This document shows positions 3,000 through 14,742 of a stretch of 22,713 bases of DNA, piece by piece. Numbering within the stretch: the stretch's first letter is position 1; every line of letters starts with the position of its first letter. The position numbers were made by a program, and so were the translations under genes. A model generated the notes under the pieces. It ran no database searches. It saw only the letters and a program-made list of their open reading frames with translations, and was not told where the DNA came from. Source of the DNA: a virus; IMG/VR virus record IMGVR_UViG_3300045996_000313, positions 1 to 22,713 of that record. One strand, 5' to 3'.

Positions 3000-3596
3000 A
3001 TGTTTGATCGCAACGCACCTGTAGAACTCACCATCCGCAAAGACGGCAAACGCCGCGTTCTCAACTTTCGATTCCCAAACGATGAAGAGTGGGGCGATTG
3101 GTATCGCGCCCGTAAGACGTACATGCACAATCTCGGCCAGGGCGAGTCCACGGTAGACGTGGAATCCAAAGATGCCGACAAGGCGCTGTACGCCAAGCTC
3201 ACCACGCCGGAGCAGAACGACGGCTTCGACGCATCGACCATCGGCTTCATCATCGACCAGCTGGCCCGCACCGACGTGACCAATGCGGTCATAGACGGCG
3301 ACCAGGCCATCGTGACGATGAAGGTTGCCGGGAACTACGAGGTAGAGCACGTCATCCGCATCCCCGATACCAGTGACGTGTGGGTATTCAACCGCAGCGC
3401 GAACGTCTCGATGCTGCCCTTCGGCCGCCAGCGAATCCGCAACGCGCTGGAGCCGGGCGTGAAGCTGTACGACACATGCCTGATCTCACCGACAGGCTAT
3501 GCCCCGTCATCCGGTGTGCCCGCACTGCACAAGGACGCAGCGATTCGTGCCGTGCTTCAGCTCATCGGAAACGAGGCCGACTCGGGAAACGAGTAA
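3000..3596 (+). CDS. Tail assembly chaperone, gpG-like
   Basis: The product is 198 residues when the ribosome stays in frame. By order (after tail tube, before tape measure) it is the counterpart of lambda gpG, a cytoplasmic chaperone that coats the tape measure protein during tail assembly and is absent from the finished virion. The N-terminal 35 residues look like a small beta domain (VELTIRKDGKRRVLNFRFP). The rest is mixed helix and strand. The strongest support is at the end: the last four sense codons and stop hold a heptamer G GGA AAC in the correct phase (3584-3590) for a -1 shift into the following frame. The start ATG at 3000 has GGGAGA upstream at 2985-2990. Confidence 0.85.
   Translation: MFDRNAPVELTIRKDGKRRVLNFRFPNDEEWGDWYRARKTYMHNLGQGESTVDVESKDADKALYAKLTTPEQNDGFDASTIGFIIDQLARTDVTNAVIDGDQAIVTMKVAGNYEVEHVIRIPDTSDVWVFNRSANVSMLPFGRQRIRNALEPGVKLYDTCLISPTGYAPSSGVPALHKDAAIRAVLQLIGNEADSGNE
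3584..3590 (+). promoter_or_regulatory. Programmed -1 ribosomal frameshift site
   Basis: The heptamer GGGAAAC is read as G GGA AAC in the chaperone frame, matching the X XXY YYZ rule; after slippage the tRNAs pair with GGG AAA. Lambda uses GGGAAAG at the same gene pair. The zero-frame stop follows after one codon (3594-3596). Confidence 0.88.
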
Positions 3597-3949
3597 CGGG
3601 GTGGGAGCAATGGCCGGAAGTGCCTTCAGTCCGGTTCCTGCTCCACCGCCTCTTACGCCGCGAAGAAGTATGCCCAGGCGTGAGCGGTTGCCCCGATGCG
3701 CCGCGGCCGCCGGCGGATCCAAGTCCTTGCGCGGGTTGTTTCCGCGAGCGGCTGGACCGCTGGTGCCGCGATCCCAAGTACGCCTGGCTCCAGACCGTTC
3801 TGGATTTCGACTACTCCATCCAGACGCGGACACCGTTGTGGGTCCAACCGAACTATTTCGAGTTCCTGGTGCTGCGCATTCTGACCGAAGAACGCGAGCG
3901 GTACCGGGAGGAGCAGATGGAAAAGAAGAGTAGGCAGCATGGCGGATAA
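3590..3949 (+). CDS. gpT-like extension of the tail chaperone, made by -1 frameshift (gpGT fusion 3000-3949)
   Basis: This frame is reached from the upstream chaperone gene by a -1 slip at 3584-3590; the fusion would be 316 residues (197 from the first frame, then 119 here). In lambda the T part binds the tail tube protein and brings it to the tape measure. It contains a basic helix near its start (RFLLHRLLRREE), five cysteines in fusion positions 225, 231, 244, 247 and 256, and a charged C-terminal helix (LRILTEERERYREEQMEKK). No convincing independent start was found: the first in-frame GTG (3620) lies inside the predicted stem-loop and has no clear ribosome site. Its stop overlaps the tape measure start by 11 bases. 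Confidence 0.8.
   Translation, partial: RVTGWEQWPEVPSVRFLLHRLLRREEVCPGVSGCPDAPRPPADPSPCAGCFRERLDRWCRDPKYAWLQTVLDFDYSIQTRTPLWVQPNYFEFLVLRILTEERERYREEQMEKKSRQHGG
3600..3647 (+). promoter_or_regulatory. Likely frameshift-stimulating RNA hairpin
   Basis: Bases 3600-3609 pair with 3639-3647 (nine pairs with one bulged G). Inside, 3614-3618 pair with 3630-3634 (five pairs, extended by two G-U pairs) around an 11-base loop. The stem starts 9 bases after the slippery heptamer, the usual spacing for a stimulating structure. Pairing was read by eye; no energy was calculated. Confidence 0.65.
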
Positions 3950-6900
3950 GAACAAAATCTCCATCACCGTCGACCTCGACACCAAGCAGGCCCAGAAGGG
4001 CGTCGAGGCGATGACCAGTGTTCTGAAGACGTTTGGCACGGAGGGGAAGGCTGTCGTTAAGAACACGACCGCGATGGCTGCGGGGACCGAAAAGGGCGCT
4101 GCGGCGATGAAGGATTTGACCAGCAGCACGAAGGCCGCCACGACGGCGTTCACGAAGCTGGGTCAGACCGACAAAGCCATTACGACGATGCACCAGAATC
4201 TGCGCATCGTGAACTCCGAAACGCGGATGGCGGCGACCACGATGGGGCAGTTACAGACGGCGGGCGCCGGTGTCGTCCAGACGATGAAGCAGGTCGGGTC
4301 TAGCACCCAACAGGCGATGAAATCAGTCGCCGCGACCAGTCAGCAGGCGACGAAGCAGGTTCAGACCGCCACTACGCAGATGGTATCGGCGTTCGTGAAA
4401 GCCGACGCTGCCGCCGCGAGTCTTGGCACCGCCAGTAAAGGCGGCAGTTCGGCGTTGCGCAGCCTTGAAACGCGAGCGACCAACACGGGTGCGGCCCTCA
4501 GCAATCTCCGCAAAGAGGCACAAAGTTTTGTCGGCGTCACCGGCAAGGTGGTCCAGTCGAATAACCAGATGGCCCGGTCGGTCAGCCAGGTCAGCACCCA
4601 GGTCAACCACCTGACGAACGTATGGAACACACAGCGGGCGGCGATGATCCGCACGCAGCAAGCGCAAGGAAATCTCGCCAACTCCTTCCGGGCGATCCGC
4701 GGTTTGGACTTCACCTTCCAGGGCGCACTCCTCGGCGGTGGGGCGCTGATGGCCACCGAAAAGATTCTCGAAACCGCAGCGTCGATCGATAAGCTGAAAA
4801 AGTCGCTCGAGTCGCTTGCGCCCGCAGGTACGAACGTCCAGGCACTCTTTGACCGGTTGATGAAACTGGCTGAGATGCCGGGAGGCGATATCGAAGCCAT
4901 CTTCGCCGGCGTAACGGCCCTGATGCCGGGATTCCAGTACAAGACCGAGGCCGTGGTGAAGACCGTAGAGGAATTGCAGAACGCGCTGGCGCTCACAGGC
5001 AAGGGCGGCCAGGAGCTCACCCTGGTCCTGAATCAGTTGGCGCAGGCTTCCGGCAAGGGCAAAGTGGCAATGGAAGATTTCCGGTACATCTTCCAGCAGA
5101 TTCCCCAAGCCCGCGCCATCATCTCTGCGAAATACGGCACGTCGGATCTGGAAGAACTGACCAAGAAGGGGATTGGCTTCTTCAAGGTCATGCTCACGCT
5201 GGTTGAGGGCGCCGAGCAGCTACAGCGGGCACAGGCTGGCATCGCCGTGGAAATGCAGAAGGTACGGAACCAAATCAAGCTACTTACTTCGGATCTCGGC
5301 AACCTGCTTGCCAAGGAGATTCCCTTTAAAACAATTACCGGGAACCTCAAGGAAGTGCGGGACGCGATCGAAAAGATGCCGCCGTGGCTCAAGGAAATGG
5401 GCGCTCAGGCCGTAATCGCCGCCGGTGGATTTCTGCTGCTCGCCGGCGCGGTCACGCTGATTGCCACGGTCGTCGGCGGTTTAGCCAGCCTGAAGATTGC
5501 CGCCTGGATCGTCGGCATCGGCGTAGTGGTCAAGACACTGATAGACGACCTGAAGGATATGTACGTGATCTTGAAAGCCATCGTGCCGTATATCACCAGC
5601 GCGAAAGGCAAGGGCACGACATTTGAGTCCATCGCAGTCAAGGAGTACGACAAATCCAAGGGCACCCCTACAGGCGTCAAGATGGGTACCGCTGAAGCGG
5701 AGGCCGCCAAGAAGCAACTCGGTCTGGACCTGAAAGGCGTACCCGCTCCACCGGAGGGATGGGACGACCGGCTGAGACAGCCCGTCTCAAAGGGCATTCA
5801 GGAGCTACGCAGACTGGCCGAACAGGAAGAGGCCATGAACAAGGCCAGGGCAGACGGCAGGAAGGGTAGCAAGGCCGATCCTTTTGCAGCCTTTGCCGAA
5901 CAGGCCGCGCGTGCTCGCGACGCGGCACTAGCCAAAGAGGGAGGCGCCCTCGGCGGGATCGAGGAACGCTACGCCAAGCATTTCCGGGAGTTCCAGAAGT
6001 TAATCACATCGACCACGAAGCTCACCGCGGAGCAGGGATTCCTGATGTTGAAAGCCTACGGAGATCTGCAACAGGCGATGGAAGCGGATCTCCGGAAGGA
6101 GCAGACGAAGCTGGCCCAGGCGCAGATCGACCAAATGTCGAAGTATCTGGAAGACGCGGAAGCGGAGCGCCAGAAGAAATCGAAAGAGGCATTCGACAAG
6201 GCCCAGGAGTGGCGGAAGGCGACCTATGAGATGGAGCGGCAGCAACTCCGCGATTCCATCGAAGCCCGCATCGATATTGTCGGCTACGAGGCAGACCAGG
6301 CCCGCGCCCGCGCAGCAGGACTGCCAAAAGAAACGATGAACCAGCGCATCATCGCCGCGAAGGTACTGGCGGATATCGAGATCCAGGAAGCGCAGCGGGT
6401 CCACGAATACAAGCTGATCCTGATGAACGACGAGTTCAATCAGCAGGAGTTGATGGCCGTTGCAGAGATGAATGATGCCAGGGAACTAGCGGACCGTCTC
6501 TGGGCCATCAAGCAGGCGCGGGAGTTGGCGAACGCCCGGATGAAGGCCTCGACCGACGCCACAATCGCCAAGCGGGAACTTGATGCGATGGCGCAGATTC
6601 AGGACGCCATTCGCGACAACTACCGCAAGACCTACGAACAGATCAAGGATTCAGCAGGCCGGGTGTTCGATGCGCTGCTCGACAAATCGACCAGCTTTTT
6701 TGACGCCTTCGCCAATATGTTCAAGACGGCCGTGCTGACGGCGATGAAGGAAGTCGTCAGCAGTCAGATTGCGCGGCTGTTTACCCGTATCGTCGTGTCG
6801 GCGCAGACCCCTGGACAGGCTCCGGGTGCTACCCCACCCTTCATTCCTTCCACCCAGGGCACGACGAGGAGTGCGGGCATCATGCGTACCCTGGGCGGTC

Positions 6901-7955
6901 TGGTCAGCAGTGTCGGCGGATTCTTCCGCGGCGGCAGTACCAGCGGTGGCGGCAGTGCGCGAACGTCCGACTTCTTTCCCGCTGGTCCAAACAGCATGTT
7001 TGGCGGGCCTGGTCCCGGTGTTCTCACTTCCACGCTTCCGACGATTGTGACGATGGGGACCAGGGTGAATCCCTATGCGCAGATGGCCGCACTCGGAGGG
7101 GCCGCGATCGGAGCACAGGGCATTCAGCAGGGCGGTCCCTTGGGGGCGGCTCAGGGAATCGGCGGCTTTGCCCTGAGCGGGGCGATGCTCGGCAAGCTCG
7201 GCATTCCGGCGCTCTCAAAGTTCGGTGGCTGGACTGGGGCGGGTATCGGCGCCGGCGTCGGGTTGATGGCCGCTGGCGCGAACCAGTCGAATCCTGTGGC
7301 ACGGTACGGCATGACCGTCGGCGGCGGCATTCTCGCTGGCGGATTACTCGGGGCTAAAATCGGCGCAATCGGCGGACCGTGGGGCATGGCGATCGGCGCG
7401 GCTGCTGGCGTGACCATCGGGCTCATTGCGTCCTTGCGGAAGACCGCGGAGCAGAAAGTGCGGGAAGAGGTCAAGCGCGTTTATGGCGTGGATATCTCTT
7501 CCAAAGGAATCCTTCAGCAGATCGCGGGAATCGCGAAGAACACCTATGGCGGCGATATCCGGCTGGCCGTCGCATCACCACAGGTTCAGGAACTCGTGCG
7601 GCTGTACTCCATGACAACCGGTCAGAGTCAGGCGGGGTTGCCGCGACAGATGCACGCGGCGACTTTCGCGCAGCAGGGCGGATCGATGACGCTGCAGCCG
7701 GTCTACAGCGGTGGTCAGCCGGTGCCCAATCCCTACGTCGGCACGACGACTGGGCAATTCAACCAGGGTGTCCTGATCGTCCCGGTGGGCGCATCGGAAA
7801 TCCAGGCGCAGTTCACCGGCAACGTGGTTAACGCGCTCGGCAGTTCCGCTGGTCCCGGCGCCGTGAGCTACGCCAACTCGCAGGCGATCCAGAGCGGGAA
7901 CGGCCGTCAGGCGCAGGCGACCGGCCTGATGGAGCCTCTGACGGCGGTGCGCTAA
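3939..7955 (+). CDS. Tape measure protein
   Basis: At 1338 residues this is the largest gene here. It acts as the ruler for tail length and is later ejected with the DNA. Visible parts in order: a Thr/Gln/Ala/Val-rich helical N-terminus (about 1-250); a conserved tape-measure segment at about 275-430 with KLKKSLESLAPAG and later GKGGQELTLVLNQLAQASGKGKVAMEDFR; a hydrophobic stretch at about 487-535 (AGGFLLLAGAVTLIATVVGG and onwards); a long charged coiled-coil region (about 600-930); and a Gly/Ala-rich, glycine-zipper-like stretch at about 1045-1165 near the C-terminus, seen in many tape measures. The start overlaps the T frame by 11 bases; the stop overlaps the next start (TAATG). No peptidase or lysozyme motif was noticed in it. 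Confidence 0.95.
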   Translation: MADKNKISITVDLDTKQAQKGVEAMTSVLKTFGTEGKAVVKNTTAMAAGTEKGAAAMKDLTSSTKAATTAFTKLGQTDKAITTMHQNLRIVNSETRMAATTMGQLQTAGAGVVQTMKQVGSSTQQAMKSVAATSQQATKQVQTATTQMVSAFVKADAAAASLGTASKGGSSALRSLETRATNTGAALSNLRKEAQSFVGVTGKVVQSNNQMARSVSQVSTQVNHLTNVWNTQRAAMIRTQQAQGNLANSFRAIRGLDFTFQGALLGGGALMATEKILETAASIDKLKKSLESLAPAGTNVQALFDRLMKLAEMPGGDIEAIFAGVTALMPGFQYKTEAVVKTVEELQNALALTGKGGQELTLVLNQLAQASGKGKVAMEDFRYIFQQIPQARAIISAKYGTSDLEELTKKGIGFFKVMLTLVEGAEQLQRAQAGIAVEMQKVRNQIKLLTSDLGNLLAKEIPFKTITGNLKEVRDAIEKMPPWLKEMGAQAVIAAGGFLLLAGAVTLIATVVGGLASLKIAAWIVGIGVVVKTLIDDLKDMYVILKAIVPYITSAKGKGTTFESIAVKEYDKSKGTPTGVKMGTAEAEAAKKQLGLDLKGVPAPPEGWDDRLRQPVSKGIQELRRLAEQEEAMNKARADGRKGSKADPFAAFAEQAARARDAALAKEGGALGGIEERYAKHFREFQKLITSTTKLTAEQGFLMLKAYGDLQQAMEADLRKEQTKLAQAQIDQMSKYLEDAEAERQKKSKEAFDKAQEWRKATYEMERQQLRDSIEARIDIVGYEADQARARAAGLPKETMNQRIIAAKVLADIEIQEAQRVHEYKLILMNDEFNQQELMAVAEMNDARELADRLWAIKQARELANARMKASTDATIAKRELDAMAQIQDAIRDNYRKTYEQIKDSAGRVFDALLDKSTSFFDAFANMFKTAVLTAMKEVVSSQIARLFTRIVVSAQTPGQAPGATPPFIPSTQGTTRSAGIMRTLGGLVSSVGGFFRGGSTSGGGSARTSDFFPAGPNSMFGGPGPGVLTSTLPTIVTMGTRVNPYAQMAALGGAAIGAQGIQQGGPLGAAQGIGGFALSGAMLGKLGIPALSKFGGWTGAGIGAGVGLMAAGANQSNPVARYGMTVGGGILAGGLLGAKIGAIGGPWGMAIGAAAGVTIGLIASLRKTAEQKVREEVKRVYGVDISSKGILQQIAGIAKNTYGGDIRLAVASPQVQELVRLYSMTTGQSQAGLPRQMHAATFAQQGGSMTLQPVYSGGQPVPNPYVGTTTGQFNQGVLIVPVGASEIQAQFTGNVVNALGSSAGPGAVSYANSQAIQSGNGRQAQATGLMEPLTAVR

Positions 7956-8359
7956 TGCCCTATAACCCTGTGCTCGATCCGGTTACTGCGGTCATGCCTT
8001 CGGGGTTGATGCAGGCATTTCACATGGAGCACCGGTACGAAGTCCAGGTAGATCTCTACGCCGATGGCCGATCAACGCGGCGGACGTTCGCCACTCTGCC
8101 GCGTGCCTACGCTTCGCTCGAGCGGAAGCTGGACGAAACGCAACTCGGTCAGCTCTACACGTTCTGGTACGCGCATCGGGTAGAGCCGTTCTACTTCTAC
8201 AACCTGCGCGAGACGGTGCCGCCCGGCAGCTACGACCCTTCGGGTGTCAATCCGGTGGGCCGGTACGTGATGGTGTTCGATTCTGCCTGGAACGACGAAC
8301 AGGCGCTCAACCGCACGATCTTGCGGCTGCAGCTACGGGAGGTCGAAGGTGCCCGATAA
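7955..8359 (+). CDS. Distal / minor tail protein, gpM-like by position
   Basis: The product is 134 residues. It follows the tape measure gene with a TAATG overlap and precedes the tail tip gene, the place of lambda M, which belongs to the distal tail complex. The sequence is strand-rich: EHRYEVQVDLYADGRSTRRTF, then LGQLYTFWYAHRVEPFYFYNL and a final TILRLQLREVEGAR strand. The segment with repeated aromatic residues (YTFWYAHRVEPFYFYNLRE) is like that in phage minor tail and DUF2460-type proteins, where a 'F..F....g....F.f' pattern handles the tip interface. The final strand and the overlap of 11 bases with the next gene fit translational coupling. Role is inferred from order and pattern. Confidence 0.7.
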   Translation: MPYNPVLDPVTAVMPSGLMQAFHMEHRYEVQVDLYADGRSTRRTFATLPRAYASLERKLDETQLGQLYTFWYAHRVEPFYFYNLRETVPPGSYDPSGVNPVGRYVMVFDSAWNDEQALNRTILRLQLREVEGAR

Positions 8360-11300
8360 CATCGGACCCATCGCCGTCCCCTCCCCGCCCCAGATTGATC
8401 CGTTTCCACTGACGATCGATTACGGTTCGGGCATCGAAGAGGAACCGCGCACGGTAGCACACCTACTCGGCCAGCCAGGGCTACGGGTCGAGCAGCGCTT
8501 TTTCATCGGTCCCGGCATCCGGCGCTACCGGGTCCGCAAGTACCTGCTGAAGTGCGACGAGACGGACCGGCTGCGGGAACACTTCGAGAGTGCCAGGGGA
8601 ACCTACGCCATCTTCCCGTTCACCTACCCTGCGCCGACAGGCGTGCTGAACGTGCTGGCGCGGTACGAGAATCCCACTTTGCCGTTCGACTATCTGGCCG
8701 GTCAGATCACTCAAGATCCAGGATTGGCGCTGCTGGAGGACCCACAAACCACGCCGGCCTACACCTACACCAGCGAGGTTGACCGGATTCCCCCAGACGG
8801 CCTTCAGCAAGGCCTCGCCGGCGAAGTACAGCGCATCATTCCGCTGCTCGAAATCGAACCGCGGCGCGATCCGGCCAGCCTGTTTCGCGTATCGAACCAG
8901 CGGCTCACCGTGAACGGGGTGCTGTACCAGGCGCGGCTGGCGGAATGGTCTGGGATCTCTCAGACCACCGGCGAGTCTGCCGATTCGTCCACCTTCACCT
9001 TCGGCAATGCGGATCGTGTGTTCACCCAGTTTGTGAATGCCGTGGACCTGCACCGCGCCACGGTACGGTTCCGGCTGCTTCACACCAATTCCCAGACGCG
9101 GATCAATCTCTGGACCGGGTACGTCACCAGTTGGGAGCGCGGCTCGGACGGCCGCTTCACCATCACTGCGAGTGACGGCGTGTACCAGCTATCCCTGGCG
9201 TACCCGGTTCGGAAGGTCAGCCGCACATGCTGGAAGGTTTACAAGGGCCGCTATTGCCCCTCGACTTCCCCGCTTCCGACCTGCGACAAGAGCTACGGCA
9301 ACTGCGTTGAGCGGGGCGTAGAGAAATCGTTTGGCGGCTTGCAGATCAATCCGCAGCGGGTACGGGTCAAAGACAGCTCCACCGGCGTGAAAGGCTGGGG
9401 CCGCTCGCAGTTCACGTCCGTCTCGATTGCCGATGACACCGTGTACCAGCGCATCGTCCAGGAAATCTACACCGACACGGCAATGAAGGTGGTCTGCGAC
9501 GTAACGACGGGCCGGGATGAGGACCAGTTCTATTCGGCAGTCGGCATCGTGGGTGAAGGTCCGATCGGCGGCTACGACTGGGATTTGACCAACCACACCC
9601 TCGATGGATCACCGCCGCACGATCCGCAGAAGGGCGGTGGCTGGCGGTATACCCAGGGGTTCGATCCGGCGTTGCCGCAGGACTACTTCGGCCTCTCCCA
9701 GGAACCGTGGGGATCGATTCCGGCCGGCTCGACCTATGCCGGAGGCCTCGCGTTCGCAGAGATCCGCAGGTCCGATGAGAAGGGCCTGCAGCTCGCGCAA
9801 ATCCGCGAACGCCAGATGAACGTCACCGTGACGCAGGGCCTGGGCGGCTGGACCTGGACCGATCCCACGACGCGCGTCTGGACCGCACCGCTCGCGAACT
9901 GGGTCTGGGTGCTGATCAACGTCTACCTGCGGGCGATCGGGCTGAAGGCCGATCCGGCCCACTCGGCCCTCGTCACGTCTGCGGACATGACAAGGTTTTT
10001 CGACGTGGCGTCCGCGATCGCGATGGCGGCCATTGCCGATGACTGGGTGCCGAAGCTGGTTGGCGCAGGGATGGAGCGCCAGTTCCCATTCCGCGGAGCA
10101 TTGAAGGAACAGAAGCCGCTCAAGGATTGGCTCCAGGAGATCGCCAATTGCGGCCTGGGCTACTTCACGTTCGTCAATGGCAAGCTGTACATCGGCGGGC
10201 GGTACAACTCCTCGGTACTGGCAGGCAATGCCTACAACGGGGCGCAGATCGTCCACAACTCTTTCCAGCTTCAGCCAATCGACGTCCGGTTCAACTGGCT
10301 GACTGGTGAGTTTGGCGACGAGGAGTTCGACTGGCAGTTGAATAATTCATCGGTCTACGACATTGACCACGCATCGACGGCCGGCGGCGATCTCTCCCCG
10401 CAGTTCACGCAGCAGTCCATGAACTTCGTGGGCGTCTCAAACAAGAGCCAGGCGGCACGAATTGTCGGCACGCGGCTGCGGGAGGAAGTGGGCGGTGTCG
10501 GACTGGCGCAGCAGGGCAAGGCGCGGCGGTGGGGATTCCGGACTACGGTTCTCGGCCTGCGGACGATGGTGGGCGACATCATCTCGCTCGACCACGAGGA
10601 TGCGCCAGACGGCCGGATCGAGGGCCGGGTGCTGCGGTGGAAGCTGAACTCCGATTACTCCATCGATATCGAAGTGCTTTCGACCACCGACCAGATGTAT
10701 GACCTCACGGTGGGCCCAAAGCCGATAGACGTTCCGGCCCTGCCGATGCCGAACGAACGATTCCCTTCCCCTTACGGTCTGGTGTGGATGCCGAACCTGA
10801 TCGCGCCGTTTACTGGCGATCCGCTGTATCCCGATCCCAAGGAGCGGACGTTCAGTCTGTGGCAGGACTACCCGATTACCCGTGAGGGCATCTGGGCCTC
10901 GGCGCTGTACGTCTCTGGCGAAGTCCCGGTGAATGTGGCCGGATTGACGGGCCTTCCCCGGCTGTCCAACGTGCGGCTGGTAGCGGGTGCCGGTACACTC
11001 TCCGGGCCGCAGACGTACTACCTCGCCGTGACGCAGCGCAACGGCACAGCGTCGACAATGCCCTCGAATATCGTGGCGTTCTTCATCCCCGCAGGGACGA
11101 CCGGCGCCGCGATCGATGTGGATGCGCGCGGAGCGCTGGGGGAGTCCTATCCCGGCTGGGCGCTCTACGCCGGCCTGGACGTGCGCCAGATGGCCGAACA
11201 GTCCCGAACGGACACAGCCCTGCCTTCGACCTTGCGATTGTCTACGGTGACGCAGATGACCCGCTCCATGCCCTGGGCATCGGCGCGGCGGGTCCGGGTC

Positions 11301-12275
11301 AAGGCGAAGCATGTGCTGCACTCCGGTGTCGCCGGCGTCCTGGTGACGGGCGTGATCGGCACGAACAAGATTGTCGCCAATGACTTCGTAGGATCGACCG
11401 AGAACTGGATTGGGCGCATCCTGAGCGCCCTGGCGGACTATTCCGATGGATCTGCTCCGCTGTGGAATTTCCAGGTCACGGCATTCGACAACACGAACGG
11501 CGCATTCACGGTGACGCCGGATTTCGCTGCTGATCCGGTGGACGTAGGCGACGTGCTGATTATGCGGACGATTGCCACGAGCGCCACCGCAACGACCGTA
11601 ACCGACACGCTATGGCAGAACTCGGTTGCGGAATCCCAGTTTGGGGCAGACGGCCTGACGCCGGATGAGGAGGAAGGGCGCATCTACCGCATTCTCCGTG
11701 GGAAGGGCGCCGGGCAGTACCGGACGATTGTGTCCAACACCCGCAACACCGTGACGGTGAATACTCCGTGGGACGTCGTGCCCGATAGCACGTCGATCGG
11801 CATCATCGAAGCTCCCGACTGGGTGCATACGGCCGAGACAAGTGACCTCGAGACAACGGTAGCCGGCATCCAGATTCCCTACCTGCGTTGCGACGTGGAC
11901 AACCTGCGCAACCTGGTAGCTCTCGTCGGCGCCTTCCTCGTGGACGACCAGGAGCGGGAAACCACCGAGAGCATGGCGGTGTTCCGGGAAGTGTTTGTCT
12001 ATGGCGCGCCGTTGATTGTGCGGTATCTGAGCGGCGCTGGTCCCTTCGATGTGTACGTGACCGATACGACGCTGCGTTGTGACCCCGAGGGCGGCACGAT
12101 GGTTCTGCTTCTTCTGCCACTGAGTGCCTACGCCGGCCGGGAAATCAACATTTTCATGGAAGGCACCGAAGGACTAGTGACGGTTCAGGCGGCGGCCGGT
12201 GAGCACTTCTATGACGGCTCGACGGAGATCACTCTGGATCACGTTGGGGAATTGTTGCGGGTGAGGTCGGCATGA
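8349..12275 (+). CDS. Tail tip protein combining gpL-like Fe-S part and gpJ-like hub
   Basis: The product is 1308 residues. Residues 1-330 look like the L / DUF2163-BR0599 type: strands, then a cluster of four cysteines at 294, 303, 312 and 319 (C-x8-C-x8-C-x6-C) followed by a GGLQINPQR segment. Lambda gpL ligates an iron-sulfur cluster with C-x8-C-x22-C-x6-C, so the first and last gaps match. From about 500 the protein resembles the J hub: NWVWVLINVYLRAIGL, a helical segment, then KPLKDWLQEIANCGLGYF and a RWGFRTTVLGLRTMVGD region typical of phage tail hub proteins. The C-terminal third is beta-rich with FN3-like segments (about 855-960). It would form the central tip and position the receptor-binding fibres. 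No NlpC/P60 or I-like part is visible. It ends in an ATGA overlap with the next gene. Confidence 0.82.
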   Translation: MPDNIGPIAVPSPPQIDPFPLTIDYGSGIEEEPRTVAHLLGQPGLRVEQRFFIGPGIRRYRVRKYLLKCDETDRLREHFESARGTYAIFPFTYPAPTGVLNVLARYENPTLPFDYLAGQITQDPGLALLEDPQTTPAYTYTSEVDRIPPDGLQQGLAGEVQRIIPLLEIEPRRDPASLFRVSNQRLTVNGVLYQARLAEWSGISQTTGESADSSTFTFGNADRVFTQFVNAVDLHRATVRFRLLHTNSQTRINLWTGYVTSWERGSDGRFTITASDGVYQLSLAYPVRKVSRTCWKVYKGRYCPSTSPLPTCDKSYGNCVERGVEKSFGGLQINPQRVRVKDSSTGVKGWGRSQFTSVSIADDTVYQRIVQEIYTDTAMKVVCDVTTGRDEDQFYSAVGIVGEGPIGGYDWDLTNHTLDGSPPHDPQKGGGWRYTQGFDPALPQDYFGLSQEPWGSIPAGSTYAGGLAFAEIRRSDEKGLQLAQIRERQMNVTVTQGLGGWTWTDPTTRVWTAPLANWVWVLINVYLRAIGLKADPAHSALVTSADMTRFFDVASAIAMAAIADDWVPKLVGAGMERQFPFRGALKEQKPLKDWLQEIANCGLGYFTFVNGKLYIGGRYNSSVLAGNAYNGAQIVHNSFQLQPIDVRFNWLTGEFGDEEFDWQLNNSSVYDIDHASTAGGDLSPQFTQQSMNFVGVSNKSQAARIVGTRLREEVGGVGLAQQGKARRWGFRTTVLGLRTMVGDIISLDHEDAPDGRIEGRVLRWKLNSDYSIDIEVLSTTDQMYDLTVGPKPIDVPALPMPNERFPSPYGLVWMPNLIAPFTGDPLYPDPKERTFSLWQDYPITREGIWASALYVSGEVPVNVAGLTGLPRLSNVRLVAGAGTLSGPQTYYLAVTQRNGTASTMPSNIVAFFIPAGTTGAAIDVDARGALGESYPGWALYAGLDVRQMAEQSRTDTALPSTLRLSTVTQMTRSMPWASARRVRVKAKHVLHSGVAGVLVTGVIGTNKIVANDFVGSTENWIGRILSALADYSDGSAPLWNFQVTAFDNTNGAFTVTPDFAADPVDVGDVLIMRTIATSATATTVTDTLWQNSVAESQFGADGLTPDEEEGRIYRILRGKGAGQYRTIVSNTRNTVTVNTPWDVVPDSTSIGIIEAPDWVHTAETSDLETTVAGIQIPYLRCDVDNLRNLVALVGAFLVDDQERETTESMAVFREVFVYGAPLIVRYLSGAGPFDVYVTDTTLRCDPEGGTMVLLLLPLSAYAGREINIFMEGTEGLVTVQAAAGEHFYDGSTEITLDHVGELLRVRSA

Positions 12276-13408
12276 CGGAGCGCATCAATTTTCCGATTCC
12301 GGTCCTGCGGCGGCGAGCGGAACGTCAGATCCCGGAGCCTCGTTCGGGTGGACCCATTGTCAAGGATTGGATCTACACCAAGACGGGTGGGACGGGCGGT
12401 GGAGGAGGAGGAGGAGGCGCTGGTAGTTGGTTCCGGGAAATTCCGATTGGCGACATCGATGGCACCAATCGCGAGTTTCTTTTAACTTACGAGGCGAACC
12501 CGCCGTGGATGTTGGAACTGATTCTCAATCAGACGACGCAGTATCCATCTGCTAACGCGCTCGACGAGGGGCCGATTACCGGAGCGCAGTACACCATCGA
12601 AGGAAACGTCATCACCTATGCGGTAGCTCCGCAGCCGGGGGATGTTCACTCGGCACTCTACCTGAAGGGTGCGCTTGCGCCGGGACCGAGCTATCCCGAG
12701 GTCATCCTGGCGGAACCATCGCTTGTCGGCTATTACCGGCTGGAAGAGACATCAGGCACGATTGCCTACGATTCGCATGGGACGAATCATGGCACGATCG
12801 TCAATCCGGCCAATGTCACGCAAGGTGTTGCGTCTGTTCCAGGCTTAGATAACTGCTATACGTTCGGCGGGTCGAATGGATACGTCTCGATTGCGCAAAT
12901 CATCGGGGCTGGTGACTACTCCGTTGAGTTCTGGTTTCAGACCTCATCGATTCCGATAGGGGTGAGCAATCCTGGCGCGCCAGCGGAGAGCGGTTTCGGC
13001 TTAGTGAACTCGACAAACGGCGGGGCTGACGATTGGGGACTGGCGCTCGCGCGGGTGGACGGAAAGTCGTTGGTGATCGGACAATCTGGCTCGCCGCCGG
13101 GGTCAACGTTTGCCGGTGTGACCTCCGATCCCGCTGTGGATTTATCGGACGGCGCGTGGCACTACGTGGTGTACACCCATGTCCGGGCGACGGGCCTATC
13201 GAAGCTGTACGTCGATGGCGCGTTGCGCGGCTCAGATACTCTGGGCACCGGCCCGCAGAATGCGACGGCGACAATTCGATTCGCCAGCATCACGTTTGGC
13301 GGCGGCAGTTTCTTACCCGGCAAGTTGGACGAGATTGCTCTGTATGACGAGGCGCTCTCGGACTCGCAAGTTGCGGCGCATCTGGCGGCGGCGGCGGTGG
13401 CGCGGTAA
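12272..13408 (+). CDS. Tail adhesin with LamG-like lectin domain
   Basis: The product is 378 residues. Residues 1-37 are a Pro/Arg-rich tip-attachment candidate; 39-51 are a glycine run (linker); about 52-132 are a phage fibre module (FREIPIGDIDGTNREFLLTY, GAQYTIEGNVITYAVAPQPGD); about 145-375 resemble a LamG/concanavalin A-like lectin (LVGYYRLEETSG near its start, then GYVSIAQ, SVEFWFQ, WHYVVYTH, KLYVDG and KLDEIALYDEALS). Such domains bind glycans, so a host-surface binding role is likely. It is coupled to the tail tip gene by ATGA at 12272-12275 and to the next by TAATG at 13406-13410. The LamG assignment comes from recognisable motifs; the ligand cannot be predicted. Confidence 0.8.
   Translation: MTERINFPIPVLRRRAERQIPEPRSGGPIVKDWIYTKTGGTGGGGGGGGAGSWFREIPIGDIDGTNREFLLTYEANPPWMLELILNQTTQYPSANALDEGPITGAQYTIEGNVITYAVAPQPGDVHSALYLKGALAPGPSYPEVILAEPSLVGYYRLEETSGTIAYDSHGTNHGTIVNPANVTQGVASVPGLDNCYTFGGSNGYVSIAQIIGAGDYSVEFWFQTSSIPIGVSNPGAPAESGFGLVNSTNGGADDWGLALARVDGKSLVIGQSGSPPGSTFAGVTSDPAVDLSDGAWHYVVYTHVRATGLSKLYVDGALRGSDTLGTGPQNATATIRFASITFGGGSFLPGKLDEIALYDEALSDSQVAAHLAAAAVAR
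12401..12415 (+). repeat. GGA triplet run encoding part of a glycine linker
   Basis: Five GGA codons in tandem lie in a stretch of 8 consecutive glycine codons in the adhesin gene. They form a flexible linker between the attachment end and the fibre module. Expansion or loss by whole triplets would change linker length without breaking the frame. Confidence 0.85.
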
Positions 13409-14742
13409 TGCCGAGTTTCACATATTGGCGCTTGACGTTATATAACCGGGGCGGCGGGAATCAGTTCGCCGTTGCCGATTGGAAGCTGTATTCCGCTGGT
13501 TCCGTCCTGATTCCCACAACGGGTGGCACGCCATCGGCTTCGAGCAGCGCGGCGGGAACTCCTGCGGATGCGTTCGATTCGAATCCCGCTACCTATTGGG
13601 GCGGCAGTGCCTTCGCCGGTACGCAATGGTTGCAATATCAATTCGCTTCGGCGGTTGATCCGGCTACCTTCTCGATCACTACCCGCAACGATTTCATGTA
13701 CATGGCGGGGCCGGGATCGTTTACGCTCATGGGCAGCAATGACGGCTCCACGTGGACAACAATTGCCAATTACAGCGCGGTTTGGGCGAGTGCGGGCCAA
13801 ACTATCACATTCACCGTGGGCGCATTCGGCTTGGGCGATTCCTATCGGCTCCGGATCACCAGCAATGACGGCGGCGGAGTCCACGCGATCGCGGGGCTGG
13901 TATTCAATGATCCGGGCGGCTCGCCGCTTTCGCTGGTAAACGGCGCAGCGCGAGCTTCCAGCGTTTACATGGGATTTGAGAAGGTGGGGCCGGGTTCCGC
14001 CTTTGATGGCGATAACGCAACGGTGTGGGCGGCCGATGGCGCAGCCAGCGGCGAGTGGATCGCGTACCGCTTCGTAGGCGCGGCGACGGTAGGCTCCTTC
14101 GCGCTGCGGGCGCGGAACGATGGCTCCTTCAATCAAACACCGCACACGTTTGCTCTGGAGAAGTCGACGGACGGCGGCACCGTTTGGTCGACACTCCAAA
14201 GCTACACTGCGGCGACGTGGACGATCGGCGCGGTTCAGACCTTTACCGCTCCGGTTCCGGCATCCATCACGATCGCTCCCACCTCTGGCCAGCAGGGCGC
14301 GGCGGTATCGCTTGCAGTCACCGGCACCGCTACCAGCTTCTCGGCGGGGGTGACGACTGTGGCGATCAGCGGGGCCGATGTGACGCTCGGCGCACCGGCG
14401 GTTACTTCTGCCACCGCGTTAACGGTATCAGTGACGATCGGGGCCGGGGCTGCGATCGGATCGCGAACCATCACCGTCACCACCGGCGCGGAAGTAGTAA
14501 CGGCGCCTTTCGAGATTACCGAACCGCCGGTAGATCCCTGCCCGAAGCGCGTGCGCGGCACAATCTCACCGGAGCAGATCCAGGCGCAATTCCGTCAAGG
14601 TAATTCGCCGGTGGTACTGATGGCTGCGGGTGAGTTCACGCCGGGCAATGTGTTGGTCACGGACGATTGCGGTAACGCTGTGGATGGTGGATCGACGGGT
14701 GGTGGTGGCATGACGATCACAGTAGATGGAGTCCCAATATGA
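13408..14742 (+). CDS. Tail adhesin with two discoidin-like domains and an Ig/TIG-like domain
   Basis: The product is 444 residues. Residues about 3-170 look like an F5/8 type C (galactose-binding) domain: FTYWRLTLYNRGGGNQFAVADW at its start, AFDSNPATYWGG in the middle, SFTLMGSNDGSTWTTI, then YRLRITSNDGG near the end. A second copy follows at about 175-290 with SAFDGDNATVWAADG and HTFALEKSTDGGTVWSTL. Residues about 290-375 resemble an IPT/TIG-like Ig domain (SITIAPTSGQQGAAVSLAVTG to RTITVTTGAEVVTAPFEI). The C-terminus has a short Cys pair and a Gly-rich end. Such modules bind carbohydrate, so this is probably a second receptor-binding part of the tail. It is coupled to its neighbours by TAATG and ATGA. 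The domain calls are by motif, not by search. Confidence 0.75.
   Translation: MPSFTYWRLTLYNRGGGNQFAVADWKLYSAGSVLIPTTGGTPSASSSAAGTPADAFDSNPATYWGGSAFAGTQWLQYQFASAVDPATFSITTRNDFMYMAGPGSFTLMGSNDGSTWTTIANYSAVWASAGQTITFTVGAFGLGDSYRLRITSNDGGGVHAIAGLVFNDPGGSPLSLVNGAARASSVYMGFEKVGPGSAFDGDNATVWAADGAASGEWIAYRFVGAATVGSFALRARNDGSFNQTPHTFALEKSTDGGTVWSTLQSYTAATWTIGAVQTFTAPVPASITIAPTSGQQGAAVSLAVTGTATSFSAGVTTVAISGADVTLGAPAVTSATALTVSVTIGAGAAIGSRTITVTTGAEVVTAPFEITEPPVDPCPKRVRGTISPEQIQAQFRQGNSPVVLMAAGEFTPGNVLVTDDCGNAVDGGSTGGGGMTITVDGVPI

Follow-up and report, generated by a model that had tools for sequence, protein, structure and literature searches.

Phage tail-chaperone genes reportedly share a conserved frameshift, described by Xu, Hendrix and Duda in 2004. 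In phage lambda, where the site reads GGGAAAG, the slip takes place at the end of G, in the -1 direction and before the tape measure gene, and T is made as a fusion only. The locus described here appears to share all of these features and differs in the A-site codon, which is AAG in lambda and AAC in our sequence. Tail-chaperone sites with the identical heptamer, GGGAAAC, have been predicted in Caulobacter phage Colossus (PMC3556154), Burkholderia phage KL1 (PMC3483164) and haloarchaeal virus HCTV-1 (PMC5009743); as a slip site, GGGAAAC is already known. In all three viruses the site has the same gene position as here, and KL1 also has a predicted stem-loop. However, the KL1 heptamer abuts the stop codon and an extra gene precedes the tape measure gene, whereas in our sequence the codon GAG lies between heptamer and stop. 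Bacterial IS elements with G_GGA_AAC or A_AAA_AAC share the low-efficiency heptamer as well: G_GG.A_AA.C slips at low efficiency, yet it is very likely used by these elements (Sharma et al. 2014, PMC4066793), where it serves transposase expression and not tail assembly.

The window, that is, the whole stretch of DNA analyzed here, is a 22.7-kb virus record, from a phage of soil type, with a G+C content of 60%. Its left end lies inside the gene for a major capsid protein of the Phage_cap_E family, which is followed by tail genes. The features at and around the junction of interest are as follows.

1887-2963, + strand: gene for the probable major tail protein (tail tube), 5' of G; homologues are 51-56% identical and in each case upstream of G
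3000-3596, + strand: G, a tail-assembly-chaperone-like gene of 198 codons in the 0 frame with its stop TAA at 3594-3596, based on the ORF, homologues 28-38% identical and the N-terminal fold
3573-3576, + strand: weak Shine-Dalgarno-like GAGG, 7 nt 5' of the heptamer, of doubtful importance here
3584-3590, + strand: slippery heptamer G_GGA_AAC, based on sequence, in-phase rarity and the identical heptamer in loci L076, L088, L091, L101 and L105
3598-3652, + strand: predicted two-tier stem-loop, a candidate stimulator, starting 7 nt past the heptamer
3590-3949, + strand: T, a -1 frame extension of 119 codons plus stop, presumably reached only via the shift, with conserved WPExPSxRF and four Cys
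3939-7955, + strand: tape measure protein (TMP_3; Pfam PF20155, E = 4.9e-16; PHROG 339), overlapping the end of T

The order of tail tube gene, G/T (two overlapping ORFs, the second in -1) and tape measure gene was the same in 8 homologues. Elsewhere in the tail region, the proteins encoded at 12272-13408 and 13408-14742 have a concanavalin-like Laminin_G_3 domain and F5/8 type C domains, and are likely carbohydrate-binding host-recognition parts.

The end of G reads G GGA AAC GAG TAA (GGA 3585-3587, AAC 3588-3590, GAG 3591-3593, TAA 3594-3596), which places G_GGA_AAC in the -1 phase with a single sense codon before the stop. These coordinates agree with a sequence-only reading of this DNA, which had put the heptamer in exact phase one sense codon 5' of the stop. 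The 316-residue fusion of the same reading was also obtained when recomputed from the sequence, as the in-frame sum of 197 G residues and 119 T residues in the predicted GT product, the -1 frame being open to 3949. In-phase XXXYYYZ motifs (Y = A or T) were found at only 6 of 6,493 codon steps in the main ORFs of the window, and the number expected by chance for the final three steps of G was about 0.003. The presence of the heptamer is certain, and the hairpin at 3598-3652 is likely; given the in-phase rarity of the former and the modest control statistics of the latter (see below), the heptamer stands clearly above chance and the hairpin moderately so. We also noticed a direct repeat, GGAAACGAG (Gly-Asn-Glu), at 3567-3575 and 3585-3593, with a distance of 18 nt between the copies. 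The base before the first copy is C and not G, and no heptamer occurs there. The heptamer site may have originated by a small duplication that left this repeat.

Relatives were collected by several routes. The large tail protein encoded at 8349-12275, searched against IMG/VR, gave entry into the family through 12 contigs (50-58% identity), 8 of which carry both G and T. A G profile then gave 171 matches in viral contigs, of which 80 were taken, and 14 in bacterial genomes; 80 of the 192 viral matches to a T profile were taken as well. The resulting set comprised 130 distinct junctions from viral contigs and mostly acidobacterial prophages. Thirteen of the 14 bacterial genomes belonged to Acidobacteriota, mostly Bryobacterales, and the remaining one was an Anaerolineales MAG; the prophage loci L094-L107 have this same distribution. 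The large tail protein was encoded in three of the 14 genomes, and in Bryobacterales F-183, where the junction is of the C_CCA_AAC type, it was located ~8 kb downstream of G. Judging from relatives only, our guess is that the host of the window also belongs to Acidobacteriota. Scanning IMG/VR with the single sequences of G, T or the tail protein 1887-2963 gave no matches, and an annotated phage collection searched with the G, T, tail and tape-measure proteins yielded nothing useful, the family being absent there. These searches found no close relative of the window, the best G identity being about 40%, and the evidence on conservation comes from other lineages at or below this identity.

For 55 junctions, a stop codon located within 20 nt on the 5' side of the G stop blocks the T frame; 54 of them lack any ATG, GTG or TTG ahead of the conserved WPExPSxRF. 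Because the frame is blocked and has no start codon, T can be reached there only by a shift. The T frame of the window is open further upstream, and the lack of a separate start for T would carry over to it from these relatives. Codon use pointed in the same direction. In the clade with CCCAAAC, which is the largest, third-position divergence was 0.41 for the G codons that precede the heptamer and 0.38 for the -1 codons that follow it, and divergence in the heptamer itself was zero, although just 16 of the 366 Pro codons in the rest of these genes for G are CCA. As the variable codon position switches frame across CCCAAAC, two coding frames appear to be joined at the heptamer. Gene order, the 130 junctions, frame-specific conservation, the startless T and a chaperone-like fold (see below) all uphold the core of the sequence-only reading, a -1 frameshift that yields a G/GT pair before the tape measure. 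We conclude that the locus is very probably the site of a programmed -1 ribosomal frameshift in the tail-assembly-chaperone gene of a siphophage, with the slippage itself and its frequency predicted from sequence.

Examination of homologues gave a mixed answer with regard to the heptamer: GGGAAAC was missing in most of them, yet another slippery motif was present and no independent start was seen. A recognizable slippery motif was located within two codons of the G stop, with T in the -1 frame, in 128 of the 130 distinct junctions. These motifs were CCCAAAC (59), AAATTTT (26), T_TTY-stop without a full heptamer (21), CCCGGAA (12), GGGAAAC (5, window included), AAATTTC (2), and GGGTTTT, TTTTTTC and GGGGGAA (1 each). 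The two junctions in which a recognized motif was missing, L143 (GAAAGCCCTATC TAA) and L082 (GACTCGGAA TAG), still have a conserved T in -1, and a new motif, decay or sequencing error are possible explanations. None of the 8 nearest full loci has GGGAAAC; their G ends in a T run into the stop, and T follows directly in -1. In L076, L088, L091, L101 and L105, GGGAAAC lies one sense codon before the stop, the same as in the window. On a tree built from 70 G+T proteins, motif type tracked clades and GGGAAAC appeared twice, on the long branch of the window and, with L076, L088 and L091, within the CCCAAAC clade; it was also present in the prophage loci L101 and L105. Two other prophages, L103 and L106, use A_AAT_TTT although their T resembles that of the CCCAAAC clade. 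C_CCG_GAA before TAG or TAA was observed in L052, L065, L069-L071, L074, L075, L077, L078, L083, L087 and L093.

Each of these site classes has a precedent. CCCGGAA and GGGGGAA are motifs known from SEA-PHAGES chaperone genes (PMC10885494). In the 21 junctions where T_TTY abuts the stop (L002, L004, L008-L011, L013 and others), the tRNA before it is unable to re-pair, which would leave slippage to Phe tRNA alone, beside the stop; among tetramers in E. coli, U_UUC and U_UUU rank second only to A_AAG (PMC4066793), which suits such a site. Three of the 26 AAATTTT junctions (L122, L134 and L189) overlap GGGAAAT one codon upstream, forming double sites G_GGA_AAT + A_AAT_TTT before TAG (GGGAAATTTT-stop), which may be intermediate between sites of the GGGAAAC and AAATTTT types. 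In a limited literature search we found no description of such a range of motifs within one orthologous gene, or of overlapping GGGAAATTTT-stop forms. We tentatively suggest natural slip-site turnover, a reading which is plausible but which we hold to be somewhat short of probable: at least 8 motifs would have occupied one place under one retained -1 shift, with GGGAAATTTT-stop forms as intermediates, T_TTY-stop as a branch relying on Phe tRNA, and the GGGAAAC-GAG-stop of the window as a derived state. Within this reading, the GGGAAATTTT-stop double sites likely let the slip point move by one codon while the shift is retained.

With regard to RNA structure, the predicted hairpin pairs 3598-3604 with 3646-3652, 3605-3609 with 3639-3643, and 3612-3618 with 3630-3636, which corresponds to 12 outer pairs with a two-base bulge and 7 inner pairs, separated from the heptamer by a spacer of 7 nt (3591-3597). 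The nested hairpin of the sequence-only reading is present, but its spacer is 7 nt and not about nine, and its pairing is slightly longer than had been claimed. Its minimum free energy was -28.9 kcal/mol for 60 nt from 3596. Among synonymous-codon controls, 15 of 1000 were equally stable for the region from 3596 and 80 of 1000 for the region from 3599; 13 of 2,266 windows were as stable; and dinucleotide shuffling of the whole 77 nt gave z = -1.5 (15 of 200 shuffles as stable). A stem also forms after GGGAAAC in L076 and L088. In the CCCAAAC clade, a downstream stem of different sequence occupies the same place, with one pair changed from G-C to C-G in 6 sequences and a covariation score of 0.079 compared with 0.032 for shuffles and at most 0.027 for slid controls. 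Per-clade RNAalifold recovered few conserved pairs only, and support for a named shared stem in the T-run clade was weak rather than clear; therefore, we do not claim one stem common to the entire family. An Rfam search gave no match. Besides, a second, far stronger hairpin was predicted at 3702-3770 within the T coding region, 111 nt past the heptamer. The segment 3698-3784 folds to -47.9 kcal/mol, a stability that none of 1000 synonymous controls reached, and the most stable 70-nt window of the record is found here.

Three-part signals, composed of an upstream Shine-Dalgarno-like sequence, a slip site and a downstream stem, are present in dnaX and IS911. The CCCAAAC clade is alike in this respect: L015-L050 and others have a conserved AGGAG/GGAG ~8 nt 5' of the heptamer, and the mean energy of its AGGAG with the anti-Shine-Dalgarno sequence was -7.6 kcal/mol versus -5.4 for synonymous controls, making it a candidate Shine-Dalgarno-like frameshift stimulator. 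The window, in comparison, combines heptamer and stem with a weak upstream GAGG, which at -5.2 kcal/mol was no better than synonymous controls; on this ground we regard a Shine-Dalgarno-like stimulator as doubtful for the window.

Several other explanations were weighed. The heptamer may slip while the hairpin at 3598-3652 is incidental, the stimulator being the nearby stop codon, the weak GAGG or the 3702-3770 hairpin. The control statistics lend this idea some weight, with the hairpin being moderately unusual (80 or 15 of 1000) compared with 0 of 1000 for 3698-3784, and so does the weakly supported shared stem of the T-run clade. However, the 7-nt spacing is typical of stimulators, the CCCAAAC clade has a covarying stem in this position, and one forms behind GGGAAAC in L076 and L088, and we consider an incidental hairpin rather unlikely. 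Far less probable are the readings that dispense with ribosomal slippage. Ribosomes could re-initiate past the stop of G and translate T alone from an internal start, either a GTG in the region of the hairpin or a different weak start, with no fusion made. The G stop and T do adjoin closely, and the T of the window has two downstream in-frame GTG codons. Yet the first of these is located 3' of the conserved WPE motif, and a product starting there would be without the conserved beginning of T; moreover, 54 of the 55 relatives whose T frame is closed lack a start codon ahead of the motif, and nearly every relative has kept a slippery motif at the stop. An internal start is accordingly very unlikely.

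The change of frame could also be caused by slippage of RNA polymerase, or by a natural indel, and not by ribosomes. Identical fusions are made by transcriptional slippage in other systems (PMC5009743), and some relatives have runs of 5-7 T; but GGGAAAC, CCCAAAC, AAATTTC and CCCGGAA contain no run long enough for such a process, and the G stop is intact in all relatives. We regard this origin as extremely unlikely. Finally, the real gene could be a +1 frame ORF that starts at ATG 3611 behind GGGAG. A purine-rich stretch is indeed located just 5' of this ATG, and the frame is open to 3933; in relatives, however, it ends 19 to about 540 nt past the stop, unlike the -1 frame, which is kept open, and its translation resembles out-of-frame T. 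The chance that this ORF is the gene is close to negligible. The independent T start, transcriptional slippage and the ORF at 3611 were each rejected, and we return to the programmed -1 ribosomal frameshift.

The proteins encoded at this site differ from those of the lambda type, as the G of the window (~198 aa) is without detectable Pfam or PHROG chaperone similarity and its T has a conserved four-Cys motif. Pfam and PHROG scans of T and of the homologues scanned likewise matched no chaperone family. AlphaFold modeled full-length G with a pLDDT of 92, and its N-terminal 92 residues alone with a mean pLDDT of 74. When the N-terminal model was compared with 631 chains, the top three, with moderate scores, were 3FGX (Z 7.9), 2OB9 (Z 5.9) and 3KLU (Z 4.6), followed by the next at Z 2.9. 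For the full-length model, a second-look aligner ranked 2OB9 first (Z 3.4), and plain Foldseek against PDB and BFVD gave no significant match. All three structures, Rbstp2171 (3FGX), HK97 gp13 (2OB9) and YqbN (3KLU), are phage tail assembly chaperones (PMC9603447, citing Pell et al. 2013). The predicted fold of G residues 1-92 aligns with them over 76-81 residues; identity is 12-13%, and G differs by an extra C-terminal region of ~105 residues, for which no convincing structural match was found. Although sequence profiles were blank, the modeled N-terminal fold and the place before the tape measure suggest that G is likely a tail assembly chaperone. T has four nearly invariant cysteines, and a rubredoxin-like zinc ribbon (Pfam RUBY_RBDX, 4.3e-5) is inserted into the T of the CCCGGAA clade.

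In the mechanism we propose, most ribosomes would read G to the TAA at 3594-3596 and make the 198-residue chaperone. With the P site occupied by tRNA-Gly on GGA and the A site by tRNA-Asn on AAC, a minority, probably stalled by the candidate stimulatory stem-loop at 3598-3652, would slip back by one base, so that the P-site codon changes from GGA to GGG and the A-site codon from AAC to AAA. Reading would then resume at CGA 3590 in the -1 frame (CGA GTA ACG) to give the 316-residue GT with its cysteine-rich T domain. If lambda is taken as a guide, G would coat the tape measure protein, T would recruit the tail-tube protein, and the heptamer would set the G:GT ratio for tail assembly. This ratio is ~30:1 in lambda (PMC5009743), and a low-efficiency GGGAAAC is in keeping with the minor proportion of GT that this analogy predicts. 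A_AAC re-pairs badly in E. coli and GGGAAAC is weak there (PMC4066793), in agreement with the sequence-only reading, which had called AAC a poor A-site codon in this organism. That reading also proposed that the strong hairpin may make up for this; the stem covariation seen here belongs to the CCCAAAC clade. Its idea that the tRNA-Asn of the host may differ found no support: the queuosine gene tgt was present in all four of the prophage-carrying acidobacterial genomes that were checked, an indirect indication that concerns the hosts of relatives.

The cassette itself is a known, ordinary device, and the added value lies in the family behind it. In its ~130 junctions the need for a -1 shift is fixed at the protein level while the slippery letters vary, and they offer comparisons ready for measuring how such sites are exchanged; if the turnover reading is true, this family would be a natural experiment in slip-site exchange. 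The junction series is direct evidence that selection keeps motifs ranked as weak in E. coli, among them those having AAC in the A site, in other bacteria, here probably Acidobacteriota.
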